DNA of 64,000 nt from Jaapia argillacea MUCL 33604 (Eukaryota; Basidiomycota; Agaricomycetes; Jaapiales; Jaapiaceae), in assembly GCA_000697665.1 (NCBI GenBank), contig KL197709.1:2941590-3005589 (forward strand), written 5' to 3'. The notes beneath the pieces are model-generated. The model did not search any database. It was not told the origin of the DNA and was given only the letters and a program-made list of their open reading frames with translations. Shown here one piece after another: positions 9,921 through 51,204 of the stretch (position 1 is its first letter; every line of letters starts with the position of its first letter). The position numbers and the translations under genes were made by a program.

Positions 9921-11003
9921 ATGGCTCACAACGCAGATGGCCACCAAACCGCTGCTCATTTCGAGCTCACAAAGATGCAGGTACGTAGGTGGCCCTCATC
10001 GGCGCGTCGCTCGACACCAACAAACCTCTGCAGCTCATCACTGGACTAAACTCTGTCGCCGAGTCGATGCGAGCGTGTGCCAATCTCGCTGAATCATTCT
10101 CGAAGCTAGTCAACACTGTTTCCCTCGACGGCAACGGGATCACAATCGCAAATGGTCACATCGCTCCCGCTCCAGCAGCTCGCTCTAGGAAACGAAAGGC
10201 TAACCTGACTCCCGAAGAGGAGGCGTTACTACCTGAGCCCAAGAAACGCAGGGAGAAGAAGGAGAAGGATCCTAATGCACCTAAGCGACCCCCATCTTCA
10301 TACCTGCTCTTCCAGAACGAGATTCGGAAACAAATCTCGGAGCAGAATCCCAACATGCCTAACAACGAGGTTTTGAAGCACATCTCGGCGAAGTGGAAGC
10401 AGATGACCCCAGACGAACGCGAGGTTAGTCTGCATCCTATTCGCTCATCAGTCTGGTGGGACGAGTTACTCATGATGTTCTTATTCCCTTCGTTCTCTTC
10501 TATCAGTCGTATGAGACGAGAGCAAAGTCTAAAAAAGCCGATTATGCTGCCGCCAAAGCTGCTTATGATGTTACTCTGGGCATCGTTCCCAAGACGAGCC
10601 CCGCACTCGCCGACGTACCCGCCGCTGCAGCTCCCTCATCACCCGTCATTACGGTACGTCTCCGAACCAGCCTTACAATACGTTCTCATACCCACTCACA
10701 TCATCGCATTTTGACCATTGACAGGCCAAACCCGCAAAATCGAAAGTCGCACCTGTAGTGGCCCCGGCTGCTACATCGGACGAAAGTGAATCATCTGAAC
10801 CAGATAGCGAAATCGAGCACGAAAAGGCGTCCACTGCTGCTGAGAGCTCTGATGAGGAGGAGGTAGATGATGACGACGATGATGATGAAGAAGAGGTGGC
10901 ACCCCCGCAACCTGCTCCCAAAAAGTCGGCGCCCAAGCACAAGGCTGCTCCGCCTCCACCCCCTGCTGCCAAAGAGAAGAAGACGAGGAAGGCTAAAGCC
11001 TGA
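9921..11003 (+). CDS. HMG-box chromatin protein
   Basis: A DNA-bending nuclear protein of 291 residues from exons 9921-9980, 10034-10423, 10507-10653 and 10725-11003. The HMG box (about 108-180) starts DPNAPKRPPSSYLLFQNEIR, continues with EVLKHISAKWKQMTPDERE and ends SYETRAKSKKADYAAAKAAY, the canonical NHP6/HMGB pattern. An upstream basic segment (KKRREKKEKD) would serve as a nuclear localisation signal. The tail is Ala/Pro-rich with an acidic run of about 17 Glu/Asp (EEEVDDDDDDDEEE) and a basic end (KEKKTRKAKA), like acidic-tailed HMGB proteins. The first exon codes only 20 residues. Its exact target sites are not visible, and the assignment is at family level only. Confidence 0.92.
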
Positions 11004-11442
11004 ACCTTGACAATGCCCTTACCTCTTACCACCATGCCAGTTCCGCGAGGCGATGGTGTTGACGTGGGGAAGTGTGGCGACGCGTTGTGTGATTTGTTCT
11101 CTCATTCTGGTGGTATTTTAGTTCGCGTTCCCAGTTCTTCTTATCTAATGATCATGTCTTCTATATTCCTTTCACTTATTCAACCAGACACGTTATACCA
11201 TGCACGATGAATCATTACCTGTGCTTTTATGTCTTTAGCATTTGTCCGAGTGCTTGGGCATTGACGGTGTCCAAGTTGTGTGTGCATCGGAAACGGCGTG
11301 TCGGATCCGGAACTCGGCTATGTGTCTGCGCAATCCAGTACAACTGAGCCTGATTAGCTGCGAATTCCCCGAGACCGAGCTATAAAGCCATATCAGGGGC
11401 CATCTTCTGACAATCATCCCTCTTTCCCGCTTTCAACGTACT
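11004..11442. other. Intergenic, 3' UTR of HMG-box gene and promoter of WW gene
   Basis: No gene seen. The right end holds a TATA box (see separate entry) and a pyrimidine-rich stretch just before the next start codon. Confidence 0.5.
11381..11386 (+). promoter_or_regulatory. TATA box of WW-domain gene
   Basis: TATAAA lies 57 bases upstream of the ATG at 11443, in a GC-balanced context, followed by a pyrimidine-rich initiator-like tract. Confidence 0.5.
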
Positions 11443-12534
11443 ATGTCGCAGCCTCCCCCCTACGGCGGTCAACCTGAGAACCCTGACAGGCGTCCCCTGC
11501 CACCTGGTTGGACGTCGCAATACGACCAGAAGTAAGTTGTTGTCCTGGCTTTATCTAACAGATCCCTTCGGACCGCGCTCATACGACGTTCGCGATTGCA
11601 TAGTTATAAAGCCTGGTGAGTTCGTCCTCCAGATCAGGCCTCATCTACCCCTCAACGACCCCTGATCCTCACTGATATGCAACTGGTTCTCCCAGGTTCT
11701 ATGTAAATACTCAAGAACAACCTCCAAGATCATCATGGACACACCCTCTTGGACCTCCACCTCCTGTACCCCAACCTCAACAATCAGCGTACACTCCTCC
11801 CCCTGGTGCTCCGCCATCTCGTAGTCCAGCACCTGGTGGTTATCCCGGGCAACAACAGGGCGGTAATTGGAACCAACCTCCGCAGCAGCAGTGGGGTGGC
11901 GGAGGTTACCAGGGAGGCCCCGGCCCCGGCGGTTATCAAGGCGGAGGGTATCAAGGTGGCGGATACCAGCCTCAAGGTGGTTATGGACAAGGTGGTTACG
12001 GTGGCCCGCCTCCCCAAGGTGGATATGGTGGACCACCTCCTCAGGGCGGATATGGAGGGTACCAAGGTGGCCCCCCTCCTCAGGAGAGTCGTGGTATGTC
12101 AGGTTTTTTTGAATTTAGTTCTAGTCGCAGTGTATATGATGGTATTGTTACCTAGGCTGGTTCGGTGGAGGTGGTAGTCAACCCCCTGCTCAACCTCAAC
12201 AAGTAGCCTATCAGCAGCCAGCCAAACCGAAGAAATCCGGAATGGGCTTGGGAACAGGGCTTGCTCTCGGTAAGTTCGAAAGTTACTCCGTTTGGTACCC
12301 TTGCTGAGCGTGGCCGAATTCCGTTGTAGGTGCTGGCGGCCTCTTGGGTGGTGCGTTACTCGGCGGAATAATTGAGGACCATCTTGACGACCAGCGTGAG
12401 GAGGCGTACGATGCCGGTGCGTCTTCTTATTCTTCGCTCATAAACGTGGTTTTGACCTCGATTCACTCCCTGCTGCAGGTTACAACGATGGCAACGACGG
12501 CAACGATTTCGGTGATAGTGGCGGTGACTGGTAA
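11443..12534 (+). CDS. WW-domain, Gly/Pro/Gln-rich protein with C-terminal glycine zipper
   Basis: Exons 11443-11531, 11604-11615, 11696-12093, 12156-12269, 12330-12416 and 12479-12534 give 251 residues. The N-terminus carries one WW domain, a proline-motif binder: LPPGWTSQYDQNYKAWFYVN then WTHPLGPP. It is assembled across a 12-base exon. The middle is a repeat-rich GGYQGG/GGYGGPPPQ low-complexity region likely to be disordered. The C-terminus has a glycine-zipper segment (GMGLGTGLALGAGGLLGGALLGG) able to insert in or oligomerise at membranes, followed by an acidic tail ending DSGGDW. This WW plus glycine-zipper layout recurs in fungal proteins without a fixed function. A role in stress-related membrane association is possible but not shown. 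Confidence 0.85.
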
Positions 12535-12986: not shown

Positions 12987-14615
12987 TCAGGTCGATTCAA
13001 CAGCGTTGATACGCATGTCGATGATCTCGTCGAACTTGTTAGTCGCTGCTTGGAGGGCTTTACCCTTCTCCTCCTCGCAAAGTTTCTTATACTCCTTTGA
13101 ATTCCTGTACCCTTTCCAAGCTGTCTTGTCCACCATCGCCCACCATCCCTTCTCGAACGGATGTCCCGGCGCGCCTGCGTAGCCCCATGGCTTGGAGGTG
13201 TACGGCTGGACCCATGGATTCAAAACTACAGCCAATTCTGGATGCATCGCTCCGGTGAAGTGAACGATGCTCGGTTCCTTCATTTCTTCCAACCCCATCT
13301 CAGAACGATCGGCAGATGATTGATTGGCATAGGTGCCGAGTCCTTGGGCATTCCACTTCAAACTCAAGGGGCTCCATCTCTCCGCGAAGTGGATATTCAA
13401 AACATCCTGGTCGCGGAAGCGAGCATCCTTCATCGCTCTCGCCATTGCCACGAGGTCTGAAAGTCTTTCTCGTGCCTTTGCAAGGTCAAGCAAGAGGACA
13501 CCGGCGTTGAAGTACGGTGCTCTCGCCATTCCGTCATGCCCCATCGGATATCCGACATCCACAGCGGCCGCAAGTGCTCTTTCGCCCAACTCGACGTTCC
13601 ACAACTCTCTCAAATCGCTGCGAACGAGGGTATCGGCATCGAGATACAGCACTTTCTCGACCGGCACAATCTTGATAATGTCGATCTTCGCCCACACAAC
13701 TCCCAACTCCGCCGCCAGGCTTTCCTCGGGCAACTCGAGAAAGAGTAAATCAACGTCTACTCTTTCCGGAATTGACCTTCTAATCCTATCTTTATCGGCA
13801 TCGGTGAGGCCACAATCGACGACGTAGAATGTGATACGCCCTTTGGTGGTATCGACAACGCTGCGCATTGCGACGGCGGCCGGGATTGCGTAGGACGAGC
13901 CAATGGTCAAGGCTATGTTCATCCCGTACCCATAAGCGTCGGCGAGTCCTCGGTCGGCCTTGTCCTTCACGAGAAATCCGATGCGCATATCGGAGGTCTT
14001 CTTTAAGACCATCTGGTATTGCTCCGGGCTCGATAATATCTCGTACTCTCCCTTATGCAATTGCAAGAAAGCATCAATACCCCGCCTGGGGTGATGGATG
14101 CTGTCTTTGTCGAATCGGTCCCAATTGTAGTCGTCGAATATGAAGATGGACCCAATCTTTGCCATCCTCCACGATAACTCCCCATCCAGAAACGTATCGT
14201 CAGCCTCATGCGAGCCGTCGACATAGACCCAGTCGAAGCCAGCACACGAAGGTGACGACAACATCTCTTCCTCCAAGAGGCTCATCAATGCTGGGAAGCT
14301 GAATTGGTCAAGGACGCGAAAAGGTTTTCCGGTGAGGGCGAGATTGTGCTTGATCTTTCGATATCTTTCACAGCCCTCTGGAGTCTTCATCAAATCAAAA
14401 TGGTCGATACAAACTATCTCGCCACCCTTGGTGCAGAGCTCCTCCAGGAGGAAAACTGCTGAGCGACCCTCCCATGACCCGATTTCCAAGATTCGTGGTT
14501 TCTCCGCTTTGACATGGGGAAATAGTTTCCTCCAGGTGTCGATGTTAAAGGAGAACCAATCCTGTGTCGGTGTGAAAATGTAGTCGCTCTGGTTGGGCAT
14601 CTGAGTGGAAGACAT
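12987..14615 (-). CDS. Methyltransferase-GT8 glycosyltransferase fusion
   Basis: A single-exon reading frame of 542 residues. The N-terminal third is a class I SAM-dependent methyltransferase of the Methyltransf_24 kind: motif I ILEIGSWEGRSAVFLLEEL (about 42-60), acidic strand-2 end IVCIDHF, and FDWVYVDGSHEADD further on. From about residue 228 a GT-A domain of family GT8 follows (glycogenin/LgtC-like). It begins MNIALTIGSSYAIPAAVAM and has the metal-binding DAD in VLYLDADTLVRSDL (about 325), then APYFNAGVLLLDL, RDQDVLN and IVHFTGAMHP. GT8 enzymes transfer hexoses from UDP-sugars with retention. The methyltransferase could cap the same glycan. There is no signal peptide or membrane helix, so cytosolic action is expected. 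It faces the epimerase-glycosyltransferase gene across a shared promoter region. The absence of coding introns is odd for this window. Confidence 0.88.
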   Translation of the reverse strand: MSSTQMPNQSDYIFTPTQDWFSFNIDTWRKLFPHVKAEKPRILEIGSWEGRSAVFLLEELCTKGGEIVCIDHFDLMKTPEGCERYRKIKHNLALTGKPFRVLDQFSFPALMSLLEEEMLSSPSCAGFDWVYVDGSHEADDTFLDGELSWRMAKIGSIFIFDDYNWDRFDKDSIHHPRRGIDAFLQLHKGEYEILSSPEQYQMVLKKTSDMRIGFLVKDKADRGLADAYGYGMNIALTIGSSYAIPAAVAMRSVVDTTKGRITFYVVDCGLTDADKDRIRRSIPERVDVDLLFLELPEESLAAELGVVWAKIDIIKIVPVEKVLYLDADTLVRSDLRELWNVELGERALAAAVDVGYPMGHDGMARAPYFNAGVLLLDLAKARERLSDLVAMARAMKDARFRDQDVLNIHFAERWSPLSLKWNAQGLGTYANQSSADRSEMGLEEMKEPSIVHFTGAMHPELAVVLNPWVQPYTSKPWGYAGAPGHPFEKGWWAMVDKTAWKGYRNSKEYKKLCEEEKGKALQAATNKFDEIIDMRINAVEST

Positions 14616-14620
14616 GTTTG

Positions 14621-14670
14621 CTATGATTGACCGTTAGTCGTTATCATCTGGTGGCTCGGCATGTACTCAC
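14621..14670 (-). other. Probable 5' UTR intron of methyltransferase-GT8 gene
   Basis: Read on the minus strand, CAG|GTGAGT at 14670, a GACTAACGG branch-site-like motif and ATCATAG ending at 14621 form a perfect 50-base fungal intron, closing five bases before the ATG. Confidence 0.65.
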
Positions 14671-14752
14671 CTGTTTGTTGTTTCGGTTGGTAGATGTAGT
14701 TGGCGATGTCTGGAGCGCGAGAAAGTTGAGTATGATTCGTTGATTCCTTGCG

Positions 14753-14760
14753 TTTATATA
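14753..14760 (-). promoter_or_regulatory. TATA box facing methyltransferase-GT8 gene
   Basis: TATATAAA on the minus strand, about 140 bases upstream of the ATG (about 90 once the 5' UTR intron is removed). Confidence 0.55.
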
Positions 14761-15271
14761 CGTCTTCCACTACGGGCGTCTAGGTCGAATGTGGCGTTTG
14801 AAGCCGTGCATGGCGCTTCGCCCATGTCTATACATACTTGTCCGGACCCCCCGTTTAGACACGAGGTGAGATAAAGAGTACCATATCTGTCTTCTGTCAT
14901 CACTTTTGAAGATTCCAGAAACAAGTAGTGGGCGTACTACCCTTCCCCATTTAGCTGCTTCAGGATCCCACTGTGCATTGCATCGATCAGTCCCTCCTCG
15001 TTGCGCAGAGCAATATCCCTGCTTACCCTTCTGCTGAAACAACGATCCTATGTGGCGTGGAACGTTCTTCTCCGCTTGTATTGCTTTTGCCATCCGAACG
15101 CCCCAAAGAAGGGGGCACCTGAGCAGTCGCAATGCAATTTCGGTTCAACCTTGTCTTGCGCTGGGGGGAATCCCTCCGCATCTCTAGCACTGTGCCATAT
15201 ACCCCTATTGTATGATTTCTTTCGCCACAATCTTCTTTGCGATGAGTGACCACCTGGCAGCCGAGCTCCAG

Positions 15272-15279
15272 TATAAATA
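15272..15279 (+). promoter_or_regulatory. TATA box facing epimerase-glycosyltransferase gene
   Basis: TATAAATA lies 73 bases before the ATG at 15353. It mirrors the TATA box for the opposite gene. Confidence 0.6.
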
Positions 15280-15352
15280 CCGGAGCGCGTTTTCGGCGTA
15301 CCTCACCTAACAATCCCTCAACTACACAACAACAGAACAAATTTCAGCAACA

Positions 15353-18300
15353 ATGTCTTCGACCGCTACCAAGAGATACCTTGTCGCGGGAGGAAATGGT
15401 TTCATCGTAAGTCTCCCCCTCCCGAGCTGAGTATGGCGTCGCTGAGAACATTCGAAGGGATCGCATGTCGCCAAGACCTTGTTCGGCCAGGGCCATTATG
15501 TTCGCATTGCGGATATCGCACCCAAATCATCTTTCGACGAGCCCATCTGCTCAGAAGTGCTAGTGGGCAACCTCTGCGACACCACGTTCTGCAGCAAGGC
15601 TGTCCAAGGAGTAGATGTCGTGTTACACTTCGCCGCTACGATGGGCGGCATGGGAACTATTCGCGATGCGAATGACTTTATAATATACAAGGAGAACTCG
15701 ACCATGACGACTAACCTCCTTTCGGCATCCGTCCGCGCAGGAGTAACTCTCTTCTTCTACGCTTCATCAGCCTGTGTCTATCCCCACTCTCTCCAAGGAT
15801 CCAGCGAACTCGACGTGTCTTTGCGAGAGGACGACGTTTGGAAAGAGTTGCCCCCTCAGCCACAAGGGCTGTATGGTTTGGAGAAATTGACCTCGGAGTT
15901 CCTATTGCAAGCGTATGCCCAGAAAATCCAAATCCGAATCGCCAGATTTCACAATATTTTCGGTCCTCGAGGAGCTTGGTTCAATGGGAGGGAGAAAGTC
16001 CCCGCCGCTTTCGTCAGAAAAGCGTTGGCGGCTCAATTCCTTCTTCCTGACTCGGCTCCAACGATGGAGATTTGGGGAGATGGAACTCAACGACGCAGCT
16101 TCCTCTTCATCGAGGACTGCGTCGCTGGTGTCCTTCTCCTTCTTGATTCTGACTGCGACGTTCCGATCAATATTGGATCTGATCGTGCAGTTAGTGTCAA
16201 GGAATTGGCAGATATCGCGATAACAAGCGTGGGTATGGAGGTATCAAGCTTTGACTTTCATTACGAGGAATCTAGACCCGTCGGAGTCGGCTCGCGGAAT
16301 TCGAACAACGTGCGTGTCGGATCGAAATTGGGTTGGTCTCCGAAGGTGTCGTTGGAGGAGGGTGTATCGATCACTACGCACTGGATGAAAGAAGAGATGA
16401 TGAAGATGTTGAATGGGGTGAGTGGTAGTGACCGAAACACCCTCCTTCACCGATTCCAAAGGAGCGAGCTCGTCGATCTCGAAAAAGACGGCACCACTTT
16501 CGCGATCCTCCTCCCGGTTACATCTCGTGGATTGGAAACGCCCGAGCAATGCTTGGACAACCTTCGGACTTTCGCCCAGTCCCTGATTCGTACCACTTGG
16601 CGGGACGTCCAAGACGTCGGATCGCGATATCGCCTGAGGGTCTACCTAGCAATCGACGACGACGATGACTTCCTCCAGAGCAAGGCGGAGAACGGGGAGG
16701 ACGTAGGGACCGCTCTGCTCCACGCGGAGGGCATTCGCGATGTCGTGACGATCAGTTGTCAAGTTCCCCGAGGCCATGTATGCGAGATTTGGAGACGATG
16801 TGCGGAGCGAGCGTGGAAGGAAGGGTGCGACTATTTCGTGTTAATGGGAGACGATGTGGTGGTGAAAGACGAAGGGTGGATGAGAGATGCGGAACGGGAG
16901 TTTGAGGCAATCTCGAATGATGAGGGTGTTCCTTATGGGTTTGGTGTCGTCGCTTTTACCGACATCAGTTTCCCCGGCATGCCGACCTTCCCTATCGTTC
17001 ATCGTACTCATCTCAACATTTTCAAGGGTCAGGTGGTCCCGGAGGTGTTTGTGAACCAGGATGGGGACCCATTCTTGTTCCAGTTATACAGGCGGTGGGG
17101 ATGCTCGAGGATGTTTGAGTCGAGGTTGGAGAACAAGGTCGGGGGCGGGGGGAAGGCTCGGTACGTCCAACAACACACGAAAGGATGGACCTTCGACACA
17201 CTCGACAACGCCACGTCCAAGGTGGAGAAATGGCTGTCCAGCTTTCACCCCACAGTCCAGCGCAAGCTGACCGTCGACGTCGTCATACCGTGCTACCGAG
17301 TCCAACTCCCATTACTCGAACCCATCCTCGCTTTGAAATCATCCCCGACATGCACAGTCATGTTCATCATCATTATCGATAACCCGAAGTCACACAACAT
17401 CGTCGAACTCGAAGCGAAGTACGCACATCGTCCGGATGTCCGGATTCGCATCAACGAGAAGAATATGGGTGCATCGGCTTCACGAAACCGAGGAATGGAT
17501 GAGTCCGCAGCAGAGTGGATTCACTTCTTGGACGATGATGTGACCCCACAATCCGACCTCCTCGTCGAGACAGAGAAAGTCATTCGATCTCACCCCAAGG
17601 CAGCCGGATTCATCGGCAACGCGCAATTCCCTCCAGCCGAGAGCATCTTCACCAACGCGGTGCATCTCGCCGGAGTCACTTATTTCTGGGATATCGCGAC
17701 CAAGATGGACGAGGATTTACCATGGGGCGTCACCGCCAATCTCATTGCGCGTCGTAACGTTCAGGACGGGGTCAAATATGACCTGCAATTCCCCAAGACT
17801 GGAGGAGGGGAGGATATCGATTTTTGCAGGAAGAAGCGCGAGTATTCGCTTGAACATGGTGGGGAAGGATTCTGGCCTGCTCCGAATGTCACCGTTACCC
17901 ATCCGTATTGGAACAATGGCCGTCGGTCCTACTGGCGTTTCTACATGTGGAGCAAGGGCGACGGAGGGTTGATCAAGATGTATCCTGAGGATACATATAT
18001 TGATAGAGCACCCAACAGCGCGGAGTCGTTGCTGATTGGCATTGTGTTGCTCGCAGCGGGATTGATCCTCGGCTTCAGGACCGGTAGTGACATCCTGCTC
18101 GGGATCGCAATCAAGTTTCTCGTGGCCGTATTGCTGGCCAACATAGTCCACGACGCGTATAGACATTTGTGGAGGGACGGGGAGAGGACCAAGGCGATCA
18201 AGTCGACCGTTGGCAATGCTAAATGGGTTGCGGCCGTTCTGGAGAGTTCTCTCATCCGAATGGCTAGCGAGGGCGGAAGACTGGTTGGGATGTTGGAACG

Positions 18301-18436
18301 AGGCGAGGTCGGGCAGCTTGGACGCAGGTTTGACTGGTTCACTGGTAGATTGGGCCAAGGACCGATGGAGGAAGAGAGGATGAACTCGAGGCAGAGGATG
18401 ATGGTGGCCATTGGAATTCTGGCCGTGCTCATGTGA
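15353..18436 (+). CDS. GDP-mannose 3,5-epimerase-like / glycosyltransferase / GT2 trimodular membrane protein
   Basis: Exons 15353-15406 and 15458-18436 give 1,010 residues. Domain 1 (about 8-345) is an extended SDR epimerase: GGNGFIGSH nucleotide-binding loop, SSACVYP with Cys124, Y157-x3-K161, and REKVPAAFVRKA with Lys198. RFHNIFGPRG, EIWGDGTQRRSFLFI and a terminal LGWSPKVSLEEG follow GDP-mannose 3,5-epimerase closely; that enzyme makes GDP-L-galactose and GDP-L-gulose. Domain 2 (about 360-610) starts FAILLPVTSRG and has a DDDDD run and FVLMGDDVVV, a GT-A-like transferase. Domain 3 (about 622-870) is a family 2 transferase: VDVVIPCYR, NMGASASRNRGMDE, WIHFLDDDVTP and GGGEDIDFCRK. Two hydrophobic helices follow at about 876-920, and the extreme C-terminus is hydrophobic. 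Sugar-nucleotide production and polymer or glycan transfer therefore sit on one membrane-tethered chain. The substrate is inferred, not shown. Confidence 0.85.
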
Positions 18437-27738: not shown

Positions 27739-27820
27739 GTCCCTGTCGATTAGTGGTTAAATCATCACGTTGTGGTTTACGCAATCCGTGAAGCCCGAGG
27801 TTCGAATCCTCGTCGGGACA
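27739..27820 (+). tRNA. tRNA-His (GTG) copy 1, with 10-base intron
   Basis: The cloverleaf is visible. The acceptor strands are GTCCCTG (27739-27745) and TCGGGAC (27813-27819) with one mismatch and a G-T pair. D-arm GAT/ATC. Anticodon stem TCACG/CGTGA with anticodon GTG at 27772-27774. T-arm CGAGG-TTCGAAT-CCTCG (27796-27812). Discriminator A at 27820. The intron TTTACGCAAT (27776-27785) sits at the canonical 37/38 position. A G is encoded at the -1 position (27738), matching the extra 5' G required by histidyl-tRNA synthetase. Confidence 0.9.
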
Positions 27821-28033: not shown

Positions 28034-28115
28034 GTCCCTGTCGATTAGTGGTTAAATCATCACGTTGTGGTTTATGCAATCCGTGAAGCCCGAGGTTCGA
28101 ATCCTCGCCGGGACA
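28034..28115 (+). tRNA. tRNA-His (GTG) copy 2, with 10-base intron
   Basis: Same fold as copy 1, 295 bases downstream. It differs by one intron base (TTTATGCAAT) and by C instead of T opposite G7, which improves the acceptor stem. Anticodon GTG, T-arm CGAGG-TTCGAAT-CCTCG and discriminator A are unchanged. It is followed by a similar extra hairpin (GCGG-TTCGAAT-CCGC, 28130-28144). Confidence 0.9.
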
Positions 28116-46924: not shown

Positions 46925-47380
46925 CGCTCACTATCGGGAGCGGCGGTGTAGAGGTGGGTGAGCAGGCAATGGCGGGACAGATGGACGCGCAGTCTCTTCA
47001 TTTTGGCAACGCGTTTCTGGGGAACAGCTTGTGATTCGAGCGCGTGGTCCGTAATGTGGTCTGTGGGAAGGTCCAGAGACTGGTCTGGGGAAGGTCCAGT
47101 GGTGGTCTACGAAGAGGAGGATTCCAACGAAATGCATCCGATGTTCGTGCTCACCACAACAAAGATGGTTGCAATCTTCCTTTCCCAGCAGCCAGCATAC
47201 TTATCACCCGACTTCAAAGTCCCGCCTTCATATCCCAGTATCATCGTACATATACCTACCCCCATTCTCCGGTCGTTCTTCCTCGAAGGGGTTCCTTAAA
47301 TACGACCTGACGTGTTTCGGTAAGTTCGGCCATCGTCCACTGACTTTCTTTCAAAATGTGAGATAATCTGTTCGCAGCCC
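46925..47380. other. Divergent region: lipase promoter and duplicated F-box promoter
   Basis: From about 46990 the sequence matches the region before the second F-box gene (from about 49295), so the promoter was duplicated with the gene. It contains a tandem GGTCTG(T/G)GG(G)AAGGTCCA motif. Confidence 0.5.
47320..47377 (+). other. 5' UTR intron of F-box gene 1
   Basis: GTAAGT at 47320 and CGCAG ending at 47377 enclose a 58-base intron stopping three bases before the ATG. The same arrangement is present in gene 2. Confidence 0.65.
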
Positions 47381-48922
47381 ATGGATACAGCCCCGTTGCT
47401 CGAGTATCTTGCCATGAACGAACCTCTCCTCCAAGACCTTACCACTCGAGTTGAAGAGGCGCACAGGGAGTTACTTCAATTGGAAGTACGACGTCAACAA
47501 CTTATCGCATTCCTAGCCCCAGCGCGCAAGGAACGGGATGACCTCAGGGAACGAGTTCAGGACGCGCATCAGGCCATTCGAGCTCCCATCCTCCGACTAC
47601 CAGTCGAAGTCATCTCGGAGATCTTCATCGCTTGCCTCCCTGACCGACCCGCCTGGTATCCCCATAAAAAGGATACCATTCATGTTGTCACGCATGTCTG
47701 CAGGCGTTGGAGGCAGATCGCCCTTTCCACCCCGTCTTTGTGGTGTCATTTTGTGATTGTCCGCCCTAGCAAAGTCCAGGGCAGGATATTTCAGAGCAAA
47801 TATCTCCAAACTATGCTATCGCGGTCCGGCAACCTTCCGCTATCGTTTAGCACCGTCTTTGACCAACACGAGGCTGCATCTGACTTGCTCCTCCCCACCA
47901 TTGAAAGATGGCAGCATGTCAGACTCTACGGCCCTGTGCAATATGCGAGGGGCATATTGAATAATACCCCAGGCGAATTCCCAACGCTCGAGACTCTTGT
48001 CATCGCACCTCTCAGAAGAGTAGTTCCCTCTCGCTTGCAACCTACCACTCCGTTCCATATCATTCGCGCACCTTGCCTCCGCACCGTTCTCGTCGGCCAA
48101 TTCGCCGACCATTCGCAATTGATCCTGCCATGGAGCCAGTTAACGCGGTTGACCCTAAGATGCTTAATCCCCCTCTCAGAATACCCCGCTTTCTTGCGGA
48201 AATGCCCAAACCTCGTTGATTGCGAATTAGGCATTCCATTTCGAACCCTGCCAGACCTTCCCTTCCGTCCAACACCAGTCGTCCTGCAACATTTACAGAC
48301 CTTGGTAGTTTGGTTCGAGAGACCATTCCAGCCCTTGCTGGACAGCCTCGTCCTCCCCGCTCTTCGTGAGCTGAGCTTCGAAACCCCTGATATATATGGG
48401 CATCCACCAATATCCTCACCCTCGACACTCTTATCTCGTTCGAGATGCTTCCTTCAGAAACTTTCGTTCCTATCATGCACCACCAGCCAAGACGAGTTTC
48501 TCGAATGCCTCGCACTTTCTCCCGCACTCTCAGAATTGTCTTTACGAGGCTCGGACCTTTCATTCGCCCAGCCATTCCTGGACTCTTTCAACCACGACAC
48601 TCCTACATCGGCAATGGTTCCTCAACTCGCCTCTCTTTCCATTACCGGAGCCTCCCCCAAGTTCTGTGCAGACCTCTCTGCGGAGCTCTTTGCTGGCATG
48701 GTTACGAACCGGTGGACAGCTTTCACGTCGGACGCATCGGAAGCCCTTGCGTCAGTGCGTGAGGAGGATAAGGGCAAACCATTACGGGTGTTTGGTTTAA
48801 CCTCGCTATCCATCCGGTCCGTTCCGGCTGACCTCGGGAGGGAAATACGGACACGATTATATAGTTGTAGGAATGAAGGGCTGGAAGTGAATAGGCCGGA
48901 GCCACAACTGGTGTGGGCGTAA
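47381..48922 (+). CDS. F-box/LRR-like protein, tandem copy 1
   Basis: Substrate-receptor candidate for SCF ubiquitin ligases, of the large mushroom F-box expansion. Intronless coding region, 513 residues. N-terminal coiled coil (LEYLAMNEPLLQDLTTRVEEAHRELLQLEVRRQQL), then an F-box at about 68-115: APILRLPVEVISEIFIACLP, VVTHVCRRWRQIALSTPSLW. The rest is Leu-rich with irregular LRR-like strands such as LPWSQLTRLTLRCLIPLSEYPAFLRKCPNL and LALSPALSELSLRGSDLSF. The end is SIRSVPADLGREIRTRLYSCRNEGLEV. It is nearly identical in layout to the copy at 49675. The target is unknown. Such receptors have been linked with nonself recognition and rapid turnover, which remains inference. Confidence 0.9.
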   Translation: MDTAPLLEYLAMNEPLLQDLTTRVEEAHRELLQLEVRRQQLIAFLAPARKERDDLRERVQDAHQAIRAPILRLPVEVISEIFIACLPDRPAWYPHKKDTIHVVTHVCRRWRQIALSTPSLWCHFVIVRPSKVQGRIFQSKYLQTMLSRSGNLPLSFSTVFDQHEAASDLLLPTIERWQHVRLYGPVQYARGILNNTPGEFPTLETLVIAPLRRVVPSRLQPTTPFHIIRAPCLRTVLVGQFADHSQLILPWSQLTRLTLRCLIPLSEYPAFLRKCPNLVDCELGIPFRTLPDLPFRPTPVVLQHLQTLVVWFERPFQPLLDSLVLPALRELSFETPDIYGHPPISSPSTLLSRSRCFLQKLSFLSCTTSQDEFLECLALSPALSELSLRGSDLSFAQPFLDSFNHDTPTSAMVPQLASLSITGASPKFCADLSAELFAGMVTNRWTAFTSDASEALASVREEDKGKPLRVFGLTSLSIRSVPADLGREIRTRLYSCRNEGLEVNRPEPQLVWA

Positions 48923-49671: not shown

Positions 49672-49674
49672 CCC

Positions 49675-51204
49675 ATGGATACAGCCTGGTTGCACGAGTA
49701 TCTTGCCAGGAATGAACCTCTTCTCCGAGACATTACCACTCGAGTCGGAAAGGCACAGAAGGAGCTACTTCAGTTGGAAGTACGACGTCTACAACTACTC
49801 GCATTCGTAGTCCCAGCGCTCAAGGAACGAGACGACCTCAGGGAACGAGTTCAGAACGCGCGTCAGGCCATCCGATCTCCTATCATCCGACTACCAGTGG
49901 AAATCATGTCGGAGATCTTCATCGCTTGCCTCCCTGACCGACCCGCCTGGTATCCCCATAAAAAGAATACCATTTGCGTGGTCACACATGTTTGCAGGCA
50001 TTGGAGGCAAATCGCCCTTTCCACCCCGTCTTTGTGGTGCCATTTTATGATTGTCCATCCCAGCCAAGTCGAGGGCAGGATATTTCAGAGGGAATATCTC
50101 CAAACTATGCTATTGCGGTCCGGCAACCTTCCCCTGTCGTTCAGCATGGTCTTTGACCAATACGAGGCTACATATGATTTGCTCCTCCCCGCGATTGAAA
50201 GATGGCAGCATGTCAGGCTCTACGGTCCTGTGCAATATGCGAGCGGCATATTGGAAAACAACCCAGGTGCATTCCCAATGCTCGAGACTCTTGTCATCGC
50301 ACCTCTCAGAGCAACAGTCTCCTCTCGCTTGGAACCAACTACTCCGTTCCAGATCACTCACGCGCCACGCCTCCGCGCCCTTATCCTCGGCCAATTCGCC
50401 CACCCTTCGTTATTGATCCTACCATGGAGTCAGCTAACACAGCTGACCCTAAGATGTTCAATCCCCCTCTCAGAATACCCAGCCTTCTTACGGAAATGCC
50501 CAAACCTCGTCAATTGCGAATTAGATATTCAATATCGAATCGTGCCAGACCTTCCCTTCCCTCTAACATCACTTGTCCTCCAACACTTGCAGACCTTAGT
50601 AGTTTGGTCCGAGAGACCATTCCAGACCTTGCTAGACAGCCTCGTCCTCCCTGCTCTTCGTGAGCTGAGCTTCGAAGCCCCTCATATCCAGAGGCATCCA
50701 CCGATATCCTCTCCGTCCAGTCTCTTAACTCGTTCGACCTGCCTCCTTCAGAAACTTTCTTTCCTGTGGTGTGCCGTGAGCCAAGACGAATTTCTCGAAT
50801 GCCTCGCACTCTCTCCCACACTCTCAGAGCTGGCTTTACGGGGTTCGGACCTTTCATTCGCCAAGCCATTCCTGGACTCTTTCAACCCCGACACTCCTAC
50901 ATCGGCAATGGTTCCTCAACTCGCATCTCTTTCCATTACCGGAGGCTCCCAAAAGTTCTGTGCAGACCTCTCTGCGGAGCTCTTTGCTGGCATGGTTACA
51001 AACCGGTGGACAGCTTTCACGTCGGACGCGTCGGAAGCCCTTGCATCAGTACGCGAGGAGGACAAGGGCAAACCATTACGAGTCTTTGGTTTCACCTCGC
51101 TATCCATCCGGTCCATTCCGGCTGACCTCGGGAGGGAAATATGGACACGATTGTGTCGGTGTAGGAACGAAGGACTGGAGGTGAATTGGTCGGAGCCGGT
51201 ATGA
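49675..51204 (+). CDS. F-box/LRR-like protein, tandem copy 2
   Basis: Intronless, 509 residues. Same build as copy 1: coiled coil (LHEYLARNEPLLRDITTRVGKAQKELLQLEVRR), F-box SPIIRLPVEIMSEIFIACLP followed by CVVTHVCRHWRQIALSTPSLW, then a Leu-rich body ending EIWTRLCRCRNEGLEVNWSEPV. Differences from copy 1 are scattered substitutions in the coiled coil and the middle repeats (for example LWCAVSQDEFLECLALSPTLSELALRGSD). The last third (GSQKFCADLSAELFAGMVTNRWTAF onward) is almost unchanged. Both copies remain fully open, so both may be expressed. The copy 1 stop lies a few codons later (PQLVWA tail). Confidence 0.9.
   Translation: MDTAWLHEYLARNEPLLRDITTRVGKAQKELLQLEVRRLQLLAFVVPALKERDDLRERVQNARQAIRSPIIRLPVEIMSEIFIACLPDRPAWYPHKKNTICVVTHVCRHWRQIALSTPSLWCHFMIVHPSQVEGRIFQREYLQTMLLRSGNLPLSFSMVFDQYEATYDLLLPAIERWQHVRLYGPVQYASGILENNPGAFPMLETLVIAPLRATVSSRLEPTTPFQITHAPRLRALILGQFAHPSLLILPWSQLTQLTLRCSIPLSEYPAFLRKCPNLVNCELDIQYRIVPDLPFPLTSLVLQHLQTLVVWSERPFQTLLDSLVLPALRELSFEAPHIQRHPPISSPSSLLTRSTCLLQKLSFLWCAVSQDEFLECLALSPTLSELALRGSDLSFAKPFLDSFNPDTPTSAMVPQLASLSITGGSQKFCADLSAELFAGMVTNRWTAFTSDASEALASVREEDKGKPLRVFGFTSLSIRSIPADLGREIWTRLCRCRNEGLEVNWSEPV

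Follow-up and report, generated by a model that had tools for sequence, protein, structure and literature searches.

A predicted GDP-mannose 3,5-epimerase fused to glycosyltransferase domains faces a methyltransferase-GT8 gene in the fungus Jaapia argillacea

In a 64,000-nucleotide stretch of contig KL197709.1 from the basidiomycete Jaapia argillacea MUCL 33604 (GenBank assembly GCA_000697665.1, positions 2,941,590 to 3,005,589; the whole stretch is called the window below), two multidomain genes stand back to back. The product of the plus-strand gene joins a predicted GDP-mannose 3,5-epimerase (GME) to a middle domain (D2) that appears to be a remote relative of a viral glycosyltransferase (GT) family, a GT2 domain and two hydrophobic stretches, and the minus-strand gene encodes a methyltransferase fused to a GT8 domain. 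We think it rather probable that the two genes form a two-protein glycan assembly unit, one that acts at the cytosolic face of a membrane and makes an O-methylated glycan with L-galactose (or L-gulose). To our knowledge, the GME-GT-GT2/methyltransferase-GT8 architecture is new; its parts are of known kinds.

Results

The epimerase domain

The first domain of the plus-strand product matched the Pfam family Epimerase (PF01370) at 7e-30. In a PDB search the solved GMEs were its best matches, from 3e-72 (8sg0) to 3e-70, the best structure other than a GME was a UDP-glucuronic acid decarboxylase at 1.5e-20, and the best GME scored about 176 bits more than the best GDP-fucose synthase. The domain is 46% identical to the solved GME 2c59 over 289 aligned residues, and 42% identical to another compared sequence, L065, over 304. 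The motifs from which the initial annotation had proposed a GME were located at residues 121 (SSACVYP), 157 (YGLEK), 196 (REKVPAAF) and 225 (GDGTQRRSF). The features of an extended short-chain dehydrogenase/reductase (SDR) are present, namely GGNGFIGS (by way of exon 1), S121/S122, Y157 and K161, and so are all the catalytic residues, C124, Y157, K161, K198, R231 and R298.

GME and GDP-fucose synthase have the catalytic Cys in common, but the base is Lys rather than His in GME and the residue that acidifies the Cys is Arg rather than Lys (PMC8787198). We compared these positions over 97 GME rows, all picked by similarity (2 solved, 80 bacterial, 10 from 80 viral loci and 5 from plasmids or phages). 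C124, K198 and R298 were each identical in 97/97, and E. coli GDP-fucose synthase (fcl) has C/H/K. The entries 2c54, 2c5a and 2c5e deviate from 2c59 at the catalytic Lys, Tyr and Lys, where the Jaapia domain is intact (Lys, Tyr, Lys). Substitutions occur at sites that are otherwise conserved, among them V in place of A in REKAPAAF and R in place of T in GDGxQTRS. The identity as GME is thus supported by the diagnostic Cys, Lys and Arg and by similarity, the solved GMEs standing far ahead of any other structure, and the original proposal agrees with what we found.

In a tree of 103 rows the domain fell among the GMEs, beside plants and a Bacteroidota group, with a value of 92 in the SH-like approximate likelihood ratio test (SH-aLRT), and in a 33-row tree it again lay within the GMEs next to plants and Bacteroidota (ultrafast bootstrap 91, SH-aLRT 97). 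Approximately unbiased (AU) tests rejected its pairing with GalE (p 0.0014), RmlB (p 0.0003) and UXS (p 0.008), each taken singly. A grouping with UDP-glucose 4-epimerases or dTDP-glucose dehydratases had been set beforehand as refuting a GME; both identities are ruled out by the AU tests, the PDB ranking and the catalytic residues.

GME-like genes of phages, cyanophages among them, carry mixed names in public records: among the 20 phage records listed of 135, 7 were named UDP-glucose 4-epimerase and one GDP-mannose-3',5'-epimerase. In the two examined (L012 and L013), the GME residues are present.

The middle domain

D2 had no Pfam match even at E<=10, and a direct search gave no meaningful PDB match. 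With tblastn, D2 found nothing in plasmids and one match, at E 0.3, in phages; single-protein scans of viral contigs with the whole plus-strand protein, D2 or the GT2 part led to nothing, as did scans of bacterial genomes with D2, and a motif scan returned 7 loci, none of them related. An ordinary Pfam GT2 domain was ruled out for D2, which scored 1.7 bits with the GT2 profile besides lacking any Pfam match; this is not clearly above the controls, of which 23/3000 shuffles and 59/1354 reversed open reading frames (ORFs) did as well.

Faint matches of D2 in the flanks of viral GME loci led to a small viral family. A profile of five family members, built without D2, gave D2 26.0 bits, and an 83-member profile, also without D2, to which 80 further viral loci had been added, gave 33.6 bits; the controls peaked at 5.8 bits (3000 shuffles) and 8.0 bits (1354 reversed ORFs). 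The family was picked through D2's own faint match, but the gain in score from the added members is independent of that choice. D2 is 13–24% identical to its 70 aligned viral relatives, and P26, R30, D138, D139 and D210 (D2 numbering) are invariant across the 71 rows. All five members that were scanned matched phrog_14945, named "glycosyltransferase". The link from D2 to phrog_14945 runs through intermediates, and we therefore term D2 a remote relative and not a member.

With the 71-row alignment, AlphaFold2 modelled D2 at a predicted local distance difference test score (pLDDT) of 83.4 and a predicted TM-score (pTM) of 0.84, compared with 35.8 and 0.28 when D2 was folded as a single sequence. 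Foldseek with this model returned mostly GT-A transferases among the 50 PDB matches listed, plus one nucleotidyltransferase; the listed matches include the putative sugar transferase 3cgx (1.9e-06), the fucosyltransferase WrtF, TarP, SpsA and blood-group transferases. Predicted viral structures were closer, with uncharacterised proteins of CeV-01B (3.6e-14, TM 0.65) and CroV (1.7e-11, TM 0.63) and a GT2 of Mimivirus (4e-12, TM 0.56). The D2 family profile matched the solved glucosyltransferase 9jma at 4e-4, and its comparison with a GT2 profile gave 94%, as against 0.2–0.5% in two methyltransferase comparisons. These results suggest that D2 is related to the viral GT-A family as a remote relative. 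The order GME, GT, GT and membrane segment, facing a methyltransferase-GT8 gene, had been read correctly at the outset, and its second GT, which had no annotation, now has evidence of its own.

The GT2 domain, the hydrophobic stretches and the partner protein

The GT2 domain scored 51.5 bits with Glycos_transf_2 (cut-off 23.3) and carries FLDDDV at residue 708 and GGGEDIDF at residue 800, in which DDD and GGGED presumably are the GT2 motifs. The hydrophobic stretches behind it have Kyte-Doolittle means of 2.27 and 2.63 over 19 residues; the membrane tail of the initial annotation is present to the extent that these two stretches, read from hydropathy only, stand at residues 872–915. The methyltransferase-GT8 protein scored 57.3 bits with Methyltransf_24 (cut-off 26.3) and 103.3 bits with Glyco_transf_8 (cut-off 24.3), with LYLDAD at residue 323, and the best solved relative of its GT8 domain was LgtC at 6e-14. 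GT2 enzymes are inverting and GT8 enzymes retaining. The methyltransferase has relatives in 8 viral loci; the two examined (L002 and L004) consist of a single domain each, with 209 and 229 residues. From the company of its gene, we infer a sugar O-methyltransferase.

No hydrophobic N-terminus is seen in either chain, the highest mean over 19 residues within the first 60 being 0.82 and 0.59, and the methyltransferase-GT8 protein has no strong hydrophobic segment (top 19-residue mean 1.41). Because of the N-termini, we place the chemistry on the cytosolic side. The N-termini lend no support to the earlier idea that the sugar enters a surface or secreted glycan; such a glycan is possible only after export.

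Gene neighbourhoods of the viral relatives

Of the 80 viral loci that carry the D2 family, 33 have a methyltransferase, 3 on the same chain and 30 within 1.5 kb; after removal of near copies the count was 31 of 70. The same methyltransferase profiles hit within 1.5 kb in 1/80 bacterial and 11/80 viral GME loci that served as control, a comparison that retains some bias because D2-type loci had supplied the seeds for the profiles and a slightly stricter distance rule was applied to the control. Nine of the 33 methyltransferase loci were checked with Pfam, and 9/9 held methyltransferases. An epimerase-family SDR lay within 1.5 kb in 23/80 loci, and both an SDR and a methyltransferase in 14/80; in L199, L205 and L232 of the Pfam sample, a methyltransferase and an Epimerase follow directly downstream of the GT.

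One strand of the viral contig L113 (2048-5921) encodes, in order, GT2, D2-type, D2-type and GME, and so agrees with the window fusion in its kinds of domain; about 0.56 kb separates the two D2-type frames. In the viral D2-type loci examined the epimerase-family gene is separate, unlike in the window. D2-type genes were found in 6/80 viral GME loci, in two of these only weakly, and in 0/80 bacterial ones, counts that are partly by construction, as the D2-type family was first found inside GME loci.

The D2-type GT is common to phrog_14945 and phrog_2675. The first half of phrog_2675 is matched by D2-type GTs, and to it is joined a half that the window methyltransferase matches (positions 309-444 of 599, 2e-4). 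The family is named "DNA methyltransferase", and it may be a fusion of a glycosyltransferase with a sugar methyltransferase.

These counts, together with the differing methyltransferase families described below, point to a functional trio of sugar-nucleotide enzyme, D2-type GT and methyltransferase rather than to one inherited block. The linkage of GT and methyltransferase proposed earlier gains support from the viral gene order, to this extent.

Gene models and the rest of the window

The plus frame is open for 996 codons from stop to stop, ending at 18436, and the minus frame for 542 codons from 14615 to 12987; both frames, with the named domains, lie where they had first been placed. The start of the plus gene had been wrongly put at 15479, overlooking a first exon (15353-15406) and with it the NAD-binding glycines. 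In our splice model this exon has 54 nt, its joining to exon 2 completes the glycine motif GGNGFIGS, and the product has 1010 residues. As there is no stop in the 996 codons, GME, D2 and GT2 are one gene at the DNA level, and a division of the GME/GT part into two separate genes is ruled out. A chance origin of the observed domains is excluded, given their matches in databases and the conservation of catalytic residues. A probable intron in the 5' untranslated region (UTR) sits just ahead of the start codon of the methyltransferase-GT8 gene. The region between the two genes holds TATA-like boxes at 15272 and 14755 (+) and 14760 (-), which are consensus matches only. All features are listed in Table 1.

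Table 1 Features of the divergent gene pair, in window coordinates
Feature	Position	Strand	Basis
First coding exon of GME-GT-GT2 gene, MSSTATKRYLVAGGNGFI	15353..15406	+	ATG; in-frame join with exon 2 restores GGNGFIGS
Intron, 51 bp, GTAAGT...AG, phase 0	15407..15457	+	Splice model
Second exon, aa 19-1010 and stop	15458..18436	+	Open frame of 996 codons; splice model
Predicted GDP-mannose 3,5-epimerase domain, aa 1-325, intron inside	15353..16378	+	PDB search 3e-72; catalytic residues
D2, putative GT-A domain of viral-glycosyltransferase type, aa ~362-613	16487..17242	+	33.6 bits to viral family profile; AlphaFold pLDDT 83.4
GT2 domain, aa ~623-868	17270..18007	+	Pfam Glycos_transf_2 1.5e-13; C-terminal limit estimated
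Two hydrophobic stretches, aa 872-915, probable membrane hairpin	18017..18148	+	Kyte-Doolittle hydropathy
Methyltransferase-GT8 gene, 542 aa, coding part intronless	12987..14615	-	Open reading frame, Pfam
Methyltransf_24 domain, aa 43-163	14127..14489	-	Pfam 3.4e-15; 8 viral relatives at 29-34%
GT8 domain, aa 233-459 (LYLDADTLV, RDQDVLN, HFTG)	13239..13919	-	Pfam 2e-29; LgtC 6e-14
Probable 5' UTR intron of methyltransferase-GT8 gene, 50 bp, GTGAGT...ATAG	14621..14670	-	Sequence inspection
Shared intergenic region, 737 bp between both start codons	14616..15352	.	Sequence inspection

Pfam domains found among 20 further ORFs of the window were an HMG box, RING/helicase, a desaturase, IF-2 and F-box. 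The splice signals and the HMG-box, RING/helicase and F-box genes mark the stretch as eukaryotic. The GC content at third codon positions (GC3) is 0.64 in both genes of the pair, towards the top of the range of 0.53-0.65 in six other window ORFs (gene status not settled for all), and in this comparison codon composition gave no clear sign of foreign DNA. Elsewhere in the window, Rfam reports two 82-bp tRNA genes that share a strand and are separated by about 210 bp (27739-27820 and 28034-28115), of which ARAGORN finds only the second, as tRNA-Thr(TGT). Two neighbouring long plus frames (47324-48922 and 49672-51204) encode F-box-like proteins, and low-complexity open frames lie on both strands beside the HMG-box gene (10673-11035 (-) and 11641-12177; serine-rich and histidine-/valine-rich).

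Discussion

GMEs oxidise GDP-mannose at C4, epimerise it at C5 and C3 and reduce it again (PMC8787198). In the assembly unit that we propose, the GME domain would convert GDP-mannose to GDP-L-galactose, with GDP-L-gulose as a by-product, and GT2 and D2, held at the membrane by the hairpin, would pass that sugar and another one to a membrane-bound acceptor. Either of these two domains may be the one that uses GDP-L-galactose, and the channelling of the sugar nucleotide within one chain, as proposed at the outset, would be a further assumption. On the partner protein, GT8 would add a further sugar by retention and the methyltransferase would O-methylate a residue, perhaps as a cap; the common intergenic region would let both proteins be made together. 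The GME product, the acceptor and the linkages are what we infer from the domains.

Several observations weigh against this proposal. It is supported by sequence evidence only, and the membrane topology by hydropathy. The epimerase domain sits on a long branch (2.5–3.7) in the three trees built, and the AU test left its pairing with GDP-fucose synthase (E. coli fcl) unrejected (p 0.10), as well as the set GalE+RmlB+GMD+UXS (p 0.064) and all five outgroups (p 0.09); for the GME call, we regard the residue test as strong and the tree test as not decisive. For D2, the TM-scores on the query were modest (0.36–0.51 among the 50 PDB matches listed), the model draws on the viral alignment, which keeps the fold match from being fully independent, and D2 alone reached only phrog_23594 among the PHROGs at E<=1, and neither phrog_14945 nor phrog_2675. 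In the viral loci, the bias left in the methyltransferase control and the way in which the D2-type family was found count in the same direction. An SDR of GME grade was present in only 2 of the 23 SDR-bearing loci (L183 and L184), which represent one virus type; L183 is the contig L113, and L184 has an identical score. The viral methyltransferases checked match Pfam 21 or 23 best, not 24, and a profile grown from the window methyltransferase stayed at 8 sequences and detected no methyltransferase within D2-type GTs or next to them.

One alternative is that the acceptor of the pair is soluble in the cytosol, either a protein or a small molecule, instead of a glycan of the wall or surface, with the hydrophobic stretches as a mere attachment point. 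The partner protein without a strong hydrophobic segment and the two chains without hydrophobic N-termini would suit this, and chloroviruses are reported to glycosylate without the endoplasmic reticulum (ER) or Golgi through their own enzymes, most of which are predicted to be soluble (PMC7826918; PMC9614988). However, two hydrophobic stretches behind GT2 fit a membrane acceptor, and the neighbouring genes found in the window point to no cytosolic acceptor, so we consider a soluble acceptor somewhat unlikely, as a minority view worth keeping in mind.

The epimerase domain may instead have drifted to a GDP-mannose 5- or 3-epimerase only (yielding GDP-L-gulose or GDP-D-altrose) or to a GDP-fucose-synthase-like enzyme, in which case the sugar would not be L-galactose. 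The long branch, the unrejected pairing with fcl and substitutions such as those in REKAPAAF and GDGxQTRS are consistent with such a drift, and all three products are made by GMEs (PMC8787198). The residues that separate GME from GDP-fucose synthase are nevertheless of the GME type, and the best GME leads the best GDP-fucose synthase by a wide margin in bits; we judge a drifted epimerase to be unlikely.

That chance alone has placed the two genes side by side, each serving a different pathway, seems more doubtful still. Divergent gene pairs are common in fungi, and the 20 further ORFs scanned held no other glycan-related domain, hence no visible cluster. Against this, the viral relatives of D2 are fused to or stand beside methyltransferases in 33 of the 80 loci, phrog_2675 unites the two kinds within a single family, sugar-transfer domains occur in both genes, and one intergenic region of 737 bp is common to both. 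Least of all do we expect that GDP-L-galactose feeds an ascorbate-like compound as in plants, with the GT domains making its glycosides: fungi are reported to have ascorbate analogues and their glycosides, some from L-galactose among other sugars, but the same sources derive the fungal analogues mainly from D-arabinose (PMC4396506, PMC9602106), the direct fusion to two transferases and hydrophobic stretches suggests transfer of the sugar itself, and no ascorbate gene turned up among the ORFs scanned, in a scan not aimed at them.

Known GMEs are single-domain proteins (379 and 409 residues in the solved chains), whereas the GME of the assembly unit is fused to two GT domains and hydrophobic stretches. 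Across the GME loci compared, 80 of them bacterial and 80 viral, the longest GME-bearing open frame has 538 residues, so that none of these loci carries a GME-GT-GT2 fusion. This longest frame belongs to a different kind of fusion. GMEs of Chryseobacterium (L035, L046 and L075) and of an uncultured Bacteroidetes (L019) have an N-terminal extension of about 180 residues, which in L035 (4422-5990), the one locus run against Pfam, is a NUDIX domain (1e-8). Among bacterial GMEs they are the nearest to the window GME in the trees, alongside those of plants, but their partner is NUDIX and not GTs; GME fusions as such are therefore not unique. The NUDIX-GME of L035 is perhaps a GDP-sugar hydrolase joined to a GME.

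The nearest known layout that we found is A064R of PBCV-1 (rhamnosyltransferase-rhamnosyltransferase-methyltransferase), which likewise has consecutive GT domains and a sugar O-methyltransferase; it is one protein instead of two, has no epimerase, and was compared by layout only. A064R builds the end of a viral N-glycan that bears methyl groups (PMC9614988), apparently outside the ER and Golgi, since glycosylation in chloroviruses is reported to proceed without organelles (PMC7826918). Two fungal sequences were already listed in a 2011 survey as closely homologous to plant GME (PMC3220709, Table 1), and a review of GME covers plants and bacteria, with fungi unmentioned in its main text (PMC8787198). 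Among the open-access papers listed in our searches, none dealt with a fungal GME, a GME fusion, L-galactose in basidiomycetes or mushrooms, or GT8-methyltransferase fusions; within that scope, this agrees with the initial remark that no fungal system with this layout was known. Two GT-A domains in one chain, without an epimerase, occur in the bacterial polymerases PmHAS and KfoC, likened here by layout only.

A further possibility, which we hold to be speculative and improbable, is that a eukaryotic, probably fungal, genome acquired a complete cassette of epimerase, D2-type GT and methyltransferase, found elsewhere in viral DNA, and turned it into two divergent fusions, giving an ER/Golgi-independent route to an O-methylated L-galactose glycan.

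In plants, GME is the branch point to L-galactose, and we know of no report of L-galactose as a constituent of a fungal glycan. A GME wired in one chain to GTs would both make and use the donor, which would be useful for glycans with rare L-sugars. The assembly unit predicts, concretely, a fungal glycan that is methylated and contains L-galactose, and a domain that had no annotation is now linked, as a remote relative, to a viral GT family whose genes often stand beside methyltransferases and epimerase-family genes.

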